NCBI RefSeq assembly: GCF_001571385.1
Contig: NZ_BCNW01000001.1
Span: 992,001-1,056,000, forward strand
Direction: 5' to 3'
Origin: Methanofollis ethanolicus
Lineage (GTDB): Archaea; Halobacteriota; Methanomicrobia; Methanomicrobiales; Methanofollaceae
Length of the DNA: 64,000 bases
Every line of letters begins with the position of its first letter. Position 1 is the first letter of the stretch. The translations under genes were made by a program, and so were the position numbers. Below, piece by piece: positions 977 to 62,847 of the stretch. Below the pieces are notes generated by a model. It saw only the letters and a list, made by a program, of their open reading frames with translations, did no database searches and was not told the origin of the DNA.

Positions 977-2053
977 ATGGTGGTTGAAGAAATACTCAAC
1001 AATCTGGTCACGATCTTCCTGATCCTCGTGGTTATCTATATTATGTCGCGGGGGGTCGTGATCATCCAGCCCTATGAACAGGGGCTGCAGATCAGGCTTG
1101 GAAAGTATATTGGAAGGCTGAACCCGGGTTTCCGGTGGGTCATCCCCCTGATCACGTTTGTCCAGAAGATCGACCTCCGCACTCAGGTGATGGATGTCCC
1201 GTCGCAGGAGGTGATCACCAAGGACAACTCCCCGACCAATGTCGACGCCATCGTGTACACCCGTGTGGTGGACCCGGAGAAGGCCTTCTTCGAGGTCGCG
1301 AACTACCGGATGGCGACGGTTGCCCTTGCCCAGACAAGCCTTCGCGGCATCATCGGCGATATGGAGCTTGACGAGGTGCTCTACAACCGCGACCTGATCA
1401 ACACGAAGCTGCGTGACATCCTGGACAGGGAGACCGACCAGTGGGGTGTGAAGGTTGAGCGCGTGGAGATCAAGGAGGTCGACCCTGTCGGTGCGGTGAA
1501 GCAGGCGATGACCGAGCAGACTGCCGCGGAGAGGGAACGGCGCGCGGCGATCCTCCGCGCCGAGGGTGACAAGCGCTCGGCGATTCTCCGCGCCGAGGGT
1601 GAGAGGCAGTCCGTGATCCTCCAGGCCGAGGGCGAGCGGCAGAGCAAGGTCCTCCGTGCCGAGGGTGAACGGCTCTCCAGGATCCTCCAGGCGCAGGGTG
1701 AGGCCCAGGGGCTGCGCATCCTCTCCCTTGGCTCCCGGCCGCTGGACAAGAAGACGATCACCGTCCTCTCCCTCGACGCCCTGAAGCAGATGGCAGACGG
1801 GCAGGCGACGAAGATCATCTTCCCCTTCGAGGTGTCGAGTCTGATCAAGCAGAGCGCGCGCTTCCTCGGGGCGACCGACGAGATGCCCGATGTCGAGGGT
1901 GCCGCAGAGGCTGGAGAGATCGACGACTCGATCCTCGGCGAGGTGCCGAAGCCTGAAGAGATTGCAAAACTCCTCGAACGCCTCGAAGAGAAACTGGAAA
2001 ATGAGGCTGAGTCGATCGAGGAACTGAAGGTAGGAAAGAAAGAGTCAATCTAA
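977..2053 (+). CDS. SPFH/stomatin-like (band 7) membrane protein
   Basis: This 358-aa protein is a slipin-type stomatin. An N-terminal membrane helix (about residues 7-27) is followed by the SPFH domain (about 30-175: QPYEQGLQIRLGKY, NVDAIVYTRVVDP, WGVKVERVEIKEVDP). Residues 191-245 are five consecutive 11-residue repeats of the type (A/V/R)IL(R/Q)AEGERxS, predicted to form a right-handed coiled coil. The acidic tail ends SIEELKVGKKESI. The protein likely oligomerises at the cytoplasmic membrane with NfeD. A decayed copy of its 3' end lies at 2760-2852. Confidence 0.93.
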   Translation: MVVEEILNNLVTIFLILVVIYIMSRGVVIIQPYEQGLQIRLGKYIGRLNPGFRWVIPLITFVQKIDLRTQVMDVPSQEVITKDNSPTNVDAIVYTRVVDPEKAFFEVANYRMATVALAQTSLRGIIGDMELDEVLYNRDLINTKLRDILDRETDQWGVKVERVEIKEVDPVGAVKQAMTEQTAAERERRAAILRAEGDKRSAILRAEGERQSVILQAEGERQSKVLRAEGERLSRILQAQGEAQGLRILSLGSRPLDKKTITVLSLDALKQMADGQATKIIFPFEVSSLIKQSARFLGATDEMPDVEGAAEAGEIDDSILGEVPKPEEIAKLLERLEEKLENEAESIEELKVGKKESI

Positions 2054-2068
2054 TTTTCTTTTTTTCGC
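2050..2068 (+). terminator. T-rich terminator after the stomatin gene
   Basis: The stop codon is followed at once by TTTTC and a run of seven T residues, a typical archaeal U-tract terminator. A similar T-rich stretch follows the right flank of the mobile element near 3767-3778, consistent with that flank being the old 3' end of a stomatin paralogue. Confidence 0.55.
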
Positions 2069-2852: not shown

Positions 2853-2904
2853 TGGCTCTGTAGAAACCCTCATACTTCAGCCGATGTAGCCCCGATCCTA
2901 TGAA

Positions 2905-3095
2905 GAGGTACACAGATCCACTGCCTTCCCCACGATCTAGCCGGGGGACTTTTGCCCCCGGACCCCCGCGCGAGGATTGGACCTCAAAGGGGGAAACCTG
3001 CATTTTGAAGAGGGGACTGCCCTCCACCCCCTATCCTCGTGGCAGGGGGATCGGGGGGCGGCAGCCCCCGGACCAAGCACATCTGAATAGAATTT
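2905..3095 (+). repeat. G-rich hairpin repeat, copy 1
   Basis: Two hairpins with G/C arms occur here: CCGGGGGACTTTTGCCCCCGG near 2940-2960 with one base masking the symmetry, and GGGGGGCGGCAGCCCCC near 3054-3070. The linking sequence ACTGCCCTCCACCCCCTATC is shared with the other copies of this family in the window (3142-3488, 19.5, 38.7, 56.7, 61.1 and 62.5 kb). Confidence 0.55.
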
Positions 3096-3141
3096 TTCTC
3101 CCTATCGCTTCAGGAAGTACTTTCCCATGAGGGTTTACCAT

Positions 3142-3488
3142 GAGCATATCCCAAAACTCTCGTTCACTCCCCCCATCTCTGCATGGGGGCTCGGGAGAAT
3201 AGATCACGATCGAGTCGATGTCTTCCCGAATTCCATGAAGAGTCGTGCGAAACCACCGCCTTCCCCCACCTCTCTGCCGGGGGACCGACGCCCCCGGACC
3301 CCCGAAACAGGATAGGGTCGGGGAAGAGAGATCCTGATGAAGGAGATTGCCATCCACCCCCTATCGCAATGATGGGGGTCGGGGGGTGAAACCCCCCGGA
3401 CAAGACGCTAGAACAGGGTTTTTCAGAACCGAATGTGAGCCCTTTCATCGGTGTGAATGAAGGTTCGGATCCGTTTTGGGATGACCTC
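3142..3488 (+). mobile_element. Miniature inverted-repeat element, copy A
   Basis: The 347-bp element has imperfect 16-bp ends: GAGCATATCCCAAAAC (3142-3157) and GTTTTGGGATGACCTC (3473-3488), 13 of 16 positions pairing. CAT flanks it on both sides (3-bp target duplication). An inverted, closely similar copy lies at 62382-62760 and ends at the same termini. It contains two strong hairpins (CCGGGGGACCGACGCCCCCGG and GGGGGGTGAAACCCCCC types) and no gene, so it would need a transposase from elsewhere. Confidence 0.75.
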
Positions 3489-3559
3489 CATGAAAATGAT
3501 CCCGAAGAACGTCTCTCCGGGTTTGCACGAGACTCTGACTCTCATCGAGCATCCCCTTT

Positions 3560-3690
3560 TCGAGATGGGAGGTCCGCATTCTGCCTTCCCGGCCCTATCG
3601 CACTGCGGGGGTCCGGGGGCAACGAGAAGACCGAAGGTCTTCGAGGTAGTCCCCCGGCGCGAGCGTGGGGGAAGGCATGTTGACCAGCAG
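3560..3690 (-). repeat. G-rich hairpin repeat, partial copy
   Basis: This stretch carries GGGGGTCCGGGGGCAACG, a perfect GAAGACC/GGTCTTC hairpin, then AGTCCCCCGGCGCGAG and GGGGGAAGGC. The first and last blocks match one end of the 62.4-kb element in the same orientation; the GAAGACC hairpin recurs near 19690-19705. It belongs to the outer 2854-3756 element. Confidence 0.45.
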
Positions 3691-3825
3691 ACCACAAAAA
3701 ACAATTTTCATCGCGTATGCTTGAGTCCCCCGAGACTCATGCCCGATTCTACAGAGTCGATATAATCTTCTTTTTTTGGTTCGGGAAAATTTCTGTTTTT
3801 GGTGCCGGTCGGGCTTCCTTCGTCG

Positions 3826-19279: not shown

Positions 19280-19821
19280 GGTTCTGGCAGATTATTCTGC
19301 CGTCTATCGGGATTAGTCTATGCCGGAGGGTCGGGGTGGTCAATTAACCGAAGGTTTCGCTGTCCGGGAGCAGCGAGCGATAGCGAGTTCGAGGAAATCT
19401 TTCATTTTTTGCGTCTGTCCCCCGTAGACCGTATGGGGAAAGGCAGTGGATCTGCGTCTTCCTCCGGGGGTCAAAGCCCCCCGGTCCCCCCACCATTAGG
19501 ACAGGGGGTGGATGGCAGTCTTCTTCGATATGCAGGGTTTATCCTTCCCCGTCTTATCCTGTTTTCGGGGGACGACCGGAGGAAGTCGAGAAAATCTTTG
19601 ATATTCGAGGTTCGGGGGCGTAAGTCCCCCGCTCAGAGTATGAGGAAGGCAGTAGATCAGCGGCTCGTCCCGTGGGACCGGGCAGCGAAGACCTATCGGT
19701 CTTCTTGAGCTCACTTCGTCTGCACAGCGAATATCTGTGGTTCTTGATTTCAGATCGAAGAAACGTGAAACCCAACGACTCGCTCGAAGAAAAAACACGC
19801 CCCGAAAAAAAGAGAAAAAAA
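19280..19821. other. Intergenic region with a G-rich hairpin repeat
   Basis: This 540-bp gap lies between the EndoQ-like gene start and the PAC2 gene end. It contains one copy of the dispersed G-rich repeat (about 19410-19660) and a perfect GAAGACC/GGTCTTC hairpin near 19687-19706. No reading frame here has credible protein character. Confidence 0.6.
19410..19660 (-). repeat. G-rich hairpin repeat, copy at 19.5 kb
   Basis: Blocks CCGGGGGTCAAAGCCCCCCGG, GGGGGTGGATGGCAGTCT, CGGGGGCGTAAGTCCCCCG and GAGGAAGGCAGTAGATCA follow in the same order as in the 62.4-kb element. Its 16-bp termini were not found, so this is either a diverged relative or a fragment. Confidence 0.55.
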
Positions 19822-33886: not shown

Positions 33887-34513
33887 ATGAAGAGACTTCT
33901 TTCCCCATTTTTTCTGGTCCTGCTTCTCGTCGTCTGCTCGGGCTGCACCTCGACCACCCCACCTGTGGAGGCCACGCTGAACGAGACGCCGACGCTTCCT
34001 GTACTCTACCACAACAACGTTGCAGTCGACCTCTCCGCAATCGAGATCAACGACCCCGAACTCTTCACGGCGAACCTGACCTCGACGATCTTGACTGTCC
34101 TCTCAGACTCCCGCGCCGGTCTCCTCCTCGATCACGGCTGGAACATCACCTCGGTCAGGCAGGAATTCAACGACGAAGTCCTCGACCGGCCCTATGTCAG
34201 GGTCGAGTTCATGAAAAACAATCTCTCTTTCTATTTCCTTGTTGACGAGGATAAGGATCAGATCCTCAGAGGATATTGCGGGGCAGAGGTCTGGGTTGCA
34301 GGCCCTATCTCAGGCCCACTCCCGAAAGATTATTCACAGTCTTTTGATAAGCACACGAGGCGGTTGTATGTCTATGACTATCGGAATGGAACGTGGAGTG
34401 ATAATGACGAGGTGACAGTCTACACAAAAAATGGTATATCAGTTTTTGTCGAGGATAAAGAAGTCATGATTTATGATAAAAATGATATCTACTATCTTGA
34501 TCCTGATTTTTGA
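33887..34513 (+). CDS. Lipoprotein, first of a tandem pair
   Basis: The 208-aa protein starts MKRLLSPFFLVLLLVVCSGC; the Cys after CSG is a good lipobox Cys for lipid attachment outside the membrane. The core has NETPTLPVLYHNNVAVDLSA, PELFTANLTSTILTVLSDSR and GAEVWVAGPISGPLPKDYSQ. The family is unknown. ATG 33887 has GGAGGG seven bases upstream; ATG 33881 is too close. The next gene is a close paralogue. Confidence 0.75.
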   Translation: MKRLLSPFFLVLLLVVCSGCTSTTPPVEATLNETPTLPVLYHNNVAVDLSAIEINDPELFTANLTSTILTVLSDSRAGLLLDHGWNITSVRQEFNDEVLDRPYVRVEFMKNNLSFYFLVDEDKDQILRGYCGAEVWVAGPISGPLPKDYSQSFDKHTRRLYVYDYRNGTWSDNDEVTVYTKNGISVFVEDKEVMIYDKNDIYYLDPDF

Positions 34514-34530: not shown

Positions 34531-35109
34531 ATGGCACATCAAATCACACCTTGTTTCCTGGCCTCCCTGACTCTCATCGTACTCCTTGTCTGCTCGGGGT
34601 ACACCTCGACCCCTCCGCCGACCGAGATGCCGGTGAACGAGACGCCGACGCTTCCTGTACTCTACCACAACAACATTGCAGTCGACCTCTCCGCAATCGA
34701 GATCAACGACCCCGAACTCTTCACGGCGAACCTGACCTCGACGGTCTCGACGGTCCTCCTCGACTCCCGCGCCGGTCTCCTCCTCGATCACGGCTGGAAC
34801 ATCACCTCGGCCAGGCAGGAATTCGACGAAGAGGTTCTTGAACGGCCGTATGTACTGGTTGAGTTCATGAAGAACGGACTCTCTTTCTATCTCATGGTGG
34901 ACGAGGAAGAGGGACAGGTATTCGGGGGATATTGCGGTGCAAAGGTCTGGGTTGCAGGTCCGATCTCAGGCCCTCTCCCGAAAGATTACTCTCAGGCCCT
35001 TGACAAGCATACACGGCAGTGGTGGGTCTTCGATCACCGGGATGAGTCTCTAGGGATGGTCATGGCCTATGATAAAAATGGGATCTACAGATTCAATTCC
35101 GAGTTCTGA
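34531..35109 (+). CDS. Secreted paralogue of the preceding lipoprotein, lipobox altered
   Basis: The 192-aa protein is a tandem copy: about 180 bp of the middle (from NETPTLPVLYHNN) is nearly identical in DNA, while both ends differ more. The signal peptide ends LLVCSGYTST, so the lipobox Cys of the first copy is Tyr here; an upstream Cys might serve instead, or the protein may be soluble. It ends IYRFNSEF. Start ATG 34531 has AGAGGGA upstream and lies 18 bp after the previous stop. Confidence 0.75.
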   Translation: MAHQITPCFLASLTLIVLLVCSGYTSTPPPTEMPVNETPTLPVLYHNNIAVDLSAIEINDPELFTANLTSTVSTVLLDSRAGLLLDHGWNITSARQEFDEEVLERPYVLVEFMKNGLSFYLMVDEEEGQVFGGYCGAKVWVAGPISGPLPKDYSQALDKHTRQWWVFDHRDESLGMVMAYDKNGIYRFNSEF

Positions 35110-56760: not shown

Positions 56761-56810
56761 TCCGGTTCGCCCTTCCCGGGGCCAATCCTGAGAAGACAGA
56801 ACAGGAGATC

Positions 56811-56891
56811 ATGAGGAGAGAGAGCGATCTCATGAGGAGAGAGAGCGATCTCATGAGGAGAGAGAGCGATCTCATGAGGAGAGAGAGCGAT
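56811..56891 (+). repeat. 21-bp tandem repeat, about four units
   Basis: The unit ATGAGGAGAGAGAGCGATCT plus C repeats at 56811, 56832, 56853 and 56874 (last unit incomplete). The units are identical, suggesting recent expansion by slippage. Being 21 bp, it keeps any frame; the frame encodes a seven-residue unit MRRESDL but no real gene contains it. Confidence 0.9.
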
Positions 56892-57133
56892 CATCCCACT
56901 CCTCTCCTCATTGGTAGGCGCAGGCGGAGTGATCCTGAGTCGCCCATCACGTTGTGTATCCTAACGTCTCCGGAAACGATCAAAAAAGTACCGCGCCGAA
57001 AAACCGGGACGCCCGATCGCTACGCGAGTGACGTGGTGATGTGCGTGCGGTGCGGTCGGGCGAGTGTCCATCTCTGGTGATAGCGAACCGGGCGGTCCCC
57101 ACGACCGCCCGGTCAGATGTGTGTTCTCCTGTC

Positions 57134-62279: not shown

Positions 62280-62381
62280 GTCATCATGTCTGACCCGGCA
62301 GTGTGTTTCTTTCCCTGTCCTGCCTCTAGTGATGTATTCCGGTCTCTGTTTTTGTTTTTATCGGTTGCCCTGTTACACAGG

Positions 62382-62760
62382 GAGGTCATCCCAAAACTGA
62401 TCCGAACCCTCATTCACGCCGATGAAAGGATTCAGCCGATGAAAGGACTCACATTCGGTTCTGAAAAATTCTGTTCTGAATTCTGTTCTGGCGTCTTGTC
62501 CGGGGGGTTTCACCCCCCGATCCCCCCATCATTGCGAGAGGGGGTGGAGGGCAATCTCCGTCATCAGGATCTCTTTTCCCTGACCCTATCCCGTTTCGGG
62601 GGTCCGGGGGCGTCAGTCCCCCGGCAGAGAGGTCGGGGAAGGCGGTGGTTTCGCACTATGCTTCAGGGAATTCAGGAAGATACCGACCCGATCATGATAT
62701 TTTCTCCCGATCCCTGCATGCAGAGATGGGGGGAATGAACGAGAGTTTTGGGATATGCTC
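62382..62760 (-). mobile_element. Miniature inverted-repeat element, copy B
   Basis: The 379-bp element has ends GAGGTCATCCCAAAAC (62382-62397) and GTTTTGGGATATGCTC (62745-62760). AGG flanks it on both sides (3-bp target duplication). It is the reverse complement of copy A at 3142-3488 with high similarity; about 30 bp of extra sequence near its left end accounts for the length difference. It lies upstream of the methyltransferase start and ends 88 bp from the PKD gene stop. Confidence 0.75.
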
Positions 62761-62847
62761 AGGATATGCCGCCCCGGCAGGAGTGCGACAGGGCCCGGCC
62801 CTCGCCTTCTCAGAAGGGCCGGGAAAAAAGTCGGGGACCTTTCTCCC

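Follow-up and report, generated by a model that had tools for sequence, protein, structure and literature searches.

A MITE with IS5-type ends in Methanofollis ethanolicus, and its body in common with a second MITE family

Two inverted repeats lying near opposite ends of the window (the whole 64-kb stretch of Methanofollis ethanolicus DNA that was analysed) are most probably copies of a non-autonomous element of the IS5 family that is mobilised in trans, that has its body in common with a second family of miniature inverted-repeat elements (MITE), and of which copy 1 is nested in a member of that second family; we place the probability of this reading at about 0.94. The two families are referred to as MITE-A and MITE-B, respectively. 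A MITE family absent from the literature searched is thus added together with an identified transposase source, and two MITE families that differ in their ends, duplication size and transposase have one body.

MITE-A copies in the window and in the host genome

The sequence-only reading had described the two copies as similar throughout in opposite orientation, with matching 16-bp termini and different 3-bp duplications, and each of these points was confirmed. End-to-end alignment revealed point changes between the copies, plus a 12-bp and a 17-bp insertion in copy 2, and similarity ended exactly at the terminal repeats. Both copies were bounded by GAGCATATCCCAAAAC and GAGGTCATCCCAAAAC, and the duplications CAT (copy 1) and AGG (copy 2) were present. 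The features are:

3142..3488, + strand: MITE-A copy 1, 347 bp; ends, CAT duplication, ~50 sister copies
3142..3157, + strand: left terminal repeat of copy 1, GAGCATATCCCAAAAC
3473..3488, - strand: right terminal repeat of copy 1, GAGGTCATCCCAAAAC on the reverse strand
3139..3141 (left) and 3489..3491 (right), no strand: target duplication of copy 1, CAT, 3 bp
62382..62760, - strand: MITE-A copy 2, 379 bp; ends, AGG duplication, orthologous empty site in G010 and G009
62382..62397, + strand: right terminal repeat of copy 2, GAGGTCATCCCAAAAC
62745..62760, - strand: left terminal repeat of copy 2, GAGCATATCCCAAAAC on the reverse strand
62379..62381 (left) and 62761..62763 (right), no strand: target duplication of copy 2, AGG, 3 bp

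Copy 1 contained no open reading frame of 100 amino acids or more, and the frames overlapping it (3031-3357 and 3457-3765) both exceeded the element. MITE-A is a short, gene-free, non-autonomous DNA transposon with terminal inverted repeats. Empty sites are direct evidence of its insertion: the flanks of copy 2, joined with one AGG, were continuous in two other genomes, G010 (95% over 363 bp) and G009 (93%), and at the site of copy 1 MITE-B paralogues without MITE-A (L201 and L197) read GGTTTACCATGAAAATGATCC, with a single CAT.

A genome-wide search of the kind that had been proposed was performed on the host genome (2.71 Mb in three contigs). With up to one mismatch, the terminal motif GAGNNNATCCCAAAAC matched 129 times (62 forward and 67 reverse), whereas its reversed control matched once forward and never in reverse; therefore, these repeats were not due to chance. 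Forty-one long copies were detected by blastn using copy 1 as the query, and 51 full copies were paired by their ends and aligned (332-507 bp, with a mean pairwise identity of 86%), corresponding to an estimated ~0.7% of the genome (51 copies of roughly 355 bp). One end pair 995 bp apart (L198), which looked like unrelated ends flanking a MITE-B, was excluded from this set. The 3-bp flanks were identical in 44 of the 51 full copies, against ~1 in 64 expected, and an exact duplication was missing in the other seven. When the 44 sites were lined up, the target was the quasi-palindrome TWNWC(NNN)GWNWA. The triplets differed between copies, so the MITE reading stands on the point at which the sequence-only reading had considered it vulnerable; nor did homology extend past the termini, except in copies lying in a common host repeat. 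The original description of a transposed miniature inverted-repeat element is upheld by its ends, 3-bp duplications, ~50 copies and empty sites, and by the autonomous partner that sister species carry (see below).

MITEs with MITE-A ends also occurred outside the genus, in two genera of the same order (L040 1359-1537, 179 bp; L083 1501-1596, 96 bp). Their 60-bp right flank was conserved, and the hairpin units described below were absent.

The transposase source of MITE-A

In the host genome, no intact transposase gene with MITE-A ends was found. The only PF01609 gene there was considered as the partner of MITE-A and rejected: it belongs to the partner of MITE-B (L058, with B ends GGCTCTGTAGAA). 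An IS5-type transposase fragment was reached through two elements: one of 179 bp that has MITE-A ends and lies in a different family of the order (G068), and a deleted one in G217. Used as a query, this fragment found intact elements within the genus. Two insertion sequences of 870 bp were present in G006 (flanked by TCT/TCT and ATG/ATG) and one of 871 bp in G007 (CTA/CTA); that of G005 was interrupted (TTC/TTC). All had the ends GAGCATATCCCAAAA and GAGGTCATCCCAAAAC or near variants, and the 870-bp elements of the sister species carried both MITE-A end types, GAGCAT and GAGGTC, with ATCCCAAAA. In the sister genomes, the ends of MITE-A and of the insertion sequence were identical over 21-23 bp. 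The transposase consisted of two frames overlapping at a run of A, which matched DUF4096 and DDE_Tnp_1; when joined, they scored 197.6 bits with NF033580 (IS5_3; cut-off, 110), the second-best family giving 37 bits. Furthermore, one of the G006 insertion sequences (L143) occupied TTTTC(ATG)GTAAA, a site used by many MITE-A copies.

The search for a transposase with the same ends, as had been suggested, was therefore successful in sister species, where the gene is intact, but not in the host genome, which retains only a truncated 5' half of the insertion sequence (419 bp, 93.6% identical) adjoining the MITE-A copy L020. This fossil indicated that the transposase source was once present and was then lost or broken. 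At L020 (1501-2273; G000 C1 ~2429345-2430117, G000 being the host genome), the MITE-A copy is without a target duplication and directly adjoins the half insertion sequence, an arrangement suggesting a deletion beside MITE-A. CTCTC adjoins GAGCAT in MITE-A of the host genome, but GAGGTC in the insertion sequence. Since these bases inside the terminal repeat are exchanged, internal deletion alone would not turn the G006 element into MITE-A.

From these data, a mechanism may be proposed in which an IS5-family DDE transposase acts in trans on the MITE-A ends, which begin with GAGCATATCCCAAAA and GAGGTCATCCCAAAAC; it would be translated from the two overlapping frames, probably with a -1 shift of frame at the run of A. 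The transposase would excise or copy MITE-A and insert it at TWNWC(NNN)GWNWA, with duplication of the central 3 bp. The MITE-B site into which copy 1 was inserted fits this consensus. Because no intact transposase of the IS5_3 type was found in the host genome, MITE-A is presumably now largely immobile there; the autonomous partners of both families are still present in sister Methanofollis species.

Nesting in MITE-B and the hairpin body

Copy 1 of MITE-A sits within a MITE-B at 2854-3758, a nesting that the earlier reading of the window had missed. The features of MITE-B and of the hairpin units are:

2854..3758, no strand: MITE-B, with ends GGCTCTGTAGAA / GACTCTGTAGAA; MITE-A-free paralogues in L201 and L197
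2846..2853 (left) and 3759..3766 (right), no strand: target duplication of MITE-B, GATATAAT, 8 bp
2941..2967, + strand: core of MITE-B hairpin unit I, in a stretch that aligns to the MITE-A body
3045..3071, - strand: core of MITE-B hairpin unit II
3258..3326, + strand: hairpin unit I of copy 1, GCCTTCC..CCGGGGG..CCCCCGG..GATAGGG..GGGGAAG
3348..3399, - strand: hairpin unit II of copy 1, on the reverse strand CCGGGGGG..CCCCCCG.CCCC..GATAGGGGGTGGATGGCA

The window MITE-B measures 555 bp once the nested MITE-A and the extra CAT are removed. Among the fetched loci, at least 25 elements had B ends and perfect 8-bp duplications, against a chance expectation of 0.003. The autonomous partner of MITE-B (954-1008 bp, with an 8-bp duplication) was broken in the host genome, where it is inserted in a MITE-A copy (L058, duplication CGAAAATC), and had an open frame of 301 amino acids in G006 (L057, duplication GAACAATC). 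Its transposase scored 237 bits with NF033579 (IS5_2; cut-off, 140). Judged from their profile matches, MITE-A and MITE-B would be moved by different IS5-family transposases, of the IS5_3 and IS5_2 types, respectively. MITE-B resembles MITE-A in its convergent hairpin units, in its occurrence in the same genomes and in the frequent nesting of the two, but differs in its ends, in its 8-bp duplications and in its IS5 subgroup. As read from the flanks, MITE-A lay within MITE-B repeatedly, in both orientations and at one site, which points to a target hot spot and not merely to one composite.

Two MITE-A copies of the host genome, L022 (G000 C1 ~601 kb) and L023 (~2247 kb), had identical flanks in opposite orientation. 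These are one MITE-B with a nested MITE-A at two positions, possibly a composite that was moved by its B ends. Direct repeats of 46 bp (85%) were observed at window positions 2009-2054 and 2808-2853, the second of which ends exactly at the MITE-B duplication; they resemble the 3' end of a gene, repeated where MITE-B inserted.

The two strong G/C hairpins noticed earlier inside the element are real, but they are not peculiar to MITE-A, being present in MITE-B too. Over 188 bp, the MITE-A consensus aligned with the window MITE-B freed of its insert (70.7%, E 4e-16); it also aligned with simple MITE-B copies, e.g. the 228-bp L049, and simple MITE-A copies with both hairpin units were found in G003, G006 and G010. 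Since simple copies of both families have the hairpin pair, the common body is independent of nesting. In both families, the body consists of the same two G/C-hairpin units, arranged convergently. When one unit was searched for with a strict pattern, matches were found in 11 of the 12 Methanofollis genomes, with up to 106 per genome (G006), and in none of 220 other genomes of the order; the reversed control never matched. Some units were without recognisable A or B ends, and these may be decayed or independent. Annotators should be aware that G/C-rich intergenic DNA of Methanofollis can consist of layers of mobile elements.

A free-standing pair of hairpin units is present at window positions 19440-19660, and in its second unit an AT-rich palindrome, TCGAGAAAATCTTTGATATTCGAG, enlarges the loop; units of L213 and L216 contain a similar insert.

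Alternative explanations and known systems

If the window copies were products of segmental duplication or prophage remnants, they need not have transposed at all. The flanks that L022 and L023 have in common would fit such an origin, and indicate that some MITE-A copies travelled within larger blocks; however, homology ends at the termini, the duplications vary by copy and the orthologous site of copy 2 is empty, with one AGG. A scan of viral contigs for the MITE-A right end gave three matches, all by chance and inside unrelated genes, which speaks against a prophage. Both origins were refuted for the two window copies, and we consider them virtually excluded as explanations. It is also very improbable that the hairpin pair is a REP/BIME-like repeat with a RAYT/Y1 transposase of its own, to which the termini are incidental. 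Like the MITE-A body, bacterial REP/BIME consist of G/C-rich hairpins in inverted pairs with many intergenic copies, and the Methanofollis units occur genus-wide, with at most 106 strict matches per genome, in MITE-A, in MITE-B and at positions where no A or B end was recognisable. On the other hand, the MITE-A and MITE-B units lie between transposon ends, and the A and B ends are directly flanked by the 3-bp and 8-bp duplications, respectively. Moreover, Y1 (PF01797) was absent from the unit-rich genomes G000, G003 and G006 and present in the unit-free G008, a distribution across genomes on which a Y1/RAYT origin of the hairpins was rejected.

A different question is whether the hairpins do something for the host. 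The sequence-only reading had suggested that they may affect transcription ends, and functional terminators or a regulatory RNA, with the repeats maintained by selection, would be consistent with the retention of the body by two MITE families and with the folding of the element, which was better than that of shuffled sequences (z -3.9). This z value is, however, as expected from inverted repeats. The neighbours of the elements were 23 co-directional, 8 convergent and 6 divergent, i.e. as expected without bias (from crude ORF calls), and the Rfam search returned no match above noise, only two sub-threshold ones (21.5 vs 98 bits and 18 vs 96.5 bits). The stems of unit I were nearly invariant and thus provide no covariation argument for an RNA structure. 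A transcriptional role is possible, but the orientation and Rfam results do not support it, and we regard selection for terminators or RNA as unlikely. Somewhat less doubtful, while still improbable, is that the hairpin pair is an advantageous cargo, acquired by two unrelated types of ends and retained by each throughout the genus. In that case, MITE-A and MITE-B would be competing vehicles for one payload, the advantage being, e.g., a host-protein site or a transposase-regulating site. With one body in two families, it can be tested whether what lies between MITE ends is passive filler or a payload.

As for the trans-mobilised IS5-family element preferred here, the earlier statement that no named family has this set of features was wrong at the family level, since an IS5-family insertion sequence has these ends and this duplication size. 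Archaeal MITEs that are linked to IS5, and whose inverted repeats measure 16 bp and direct repeats 3 bp, have already been tabulated (PMC3852290), among them one associated with ISMma12 in Methanosarcina acetivorans (140 bp, 24 copies, IR 16, DR 3; PMC3852290 Table 4). Like MITE-A, this element has an archaeal host, an IS5 partner, the same IR and DR lengths and tens of copies, and its similarity to the partner is confined to the ends; by the tabulated features, MITE-A differs in being longer (~350 bp) and in its two-hairpin body common to a second family. The autonomous partner of MITE-A resembles the two-frame IS427-like group of IS5 (NF033580; PF13340 + PF01609) in its GAG ends, its length (~850-870 bp) and its two overlapping frames, which meet at a run of A; the partner also has a 3-bp duplication. 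MITE-A itself is without a transposase and, apart from its ends, is unrelated to these insertion sequences. Within IS5, the two frames of the partner point to IS427 and the 3-bp duplication to IS1031; the same ambiguity was reported for ISLxx6 (PMC2516522). The literature searched contained no description of a Methanofollis MITE or IS5 element, or of Methanofollis intergenic repeats with a transposase, and a shallow search found no description of one body common to two MITE families with different ends. MITE-A is a new family within a known kind of MITE, and its body occurs between two types of ends.

Other repeats in the window were a 300-bp direct repeat, probably coding sequence, at 33926-34225 and 34582-34881 (87%, spacing 656 bp) and tandem repeats of a 21-bp unit, GAGGAGAGAGAGCGATCTCAT, at 56792-56896.
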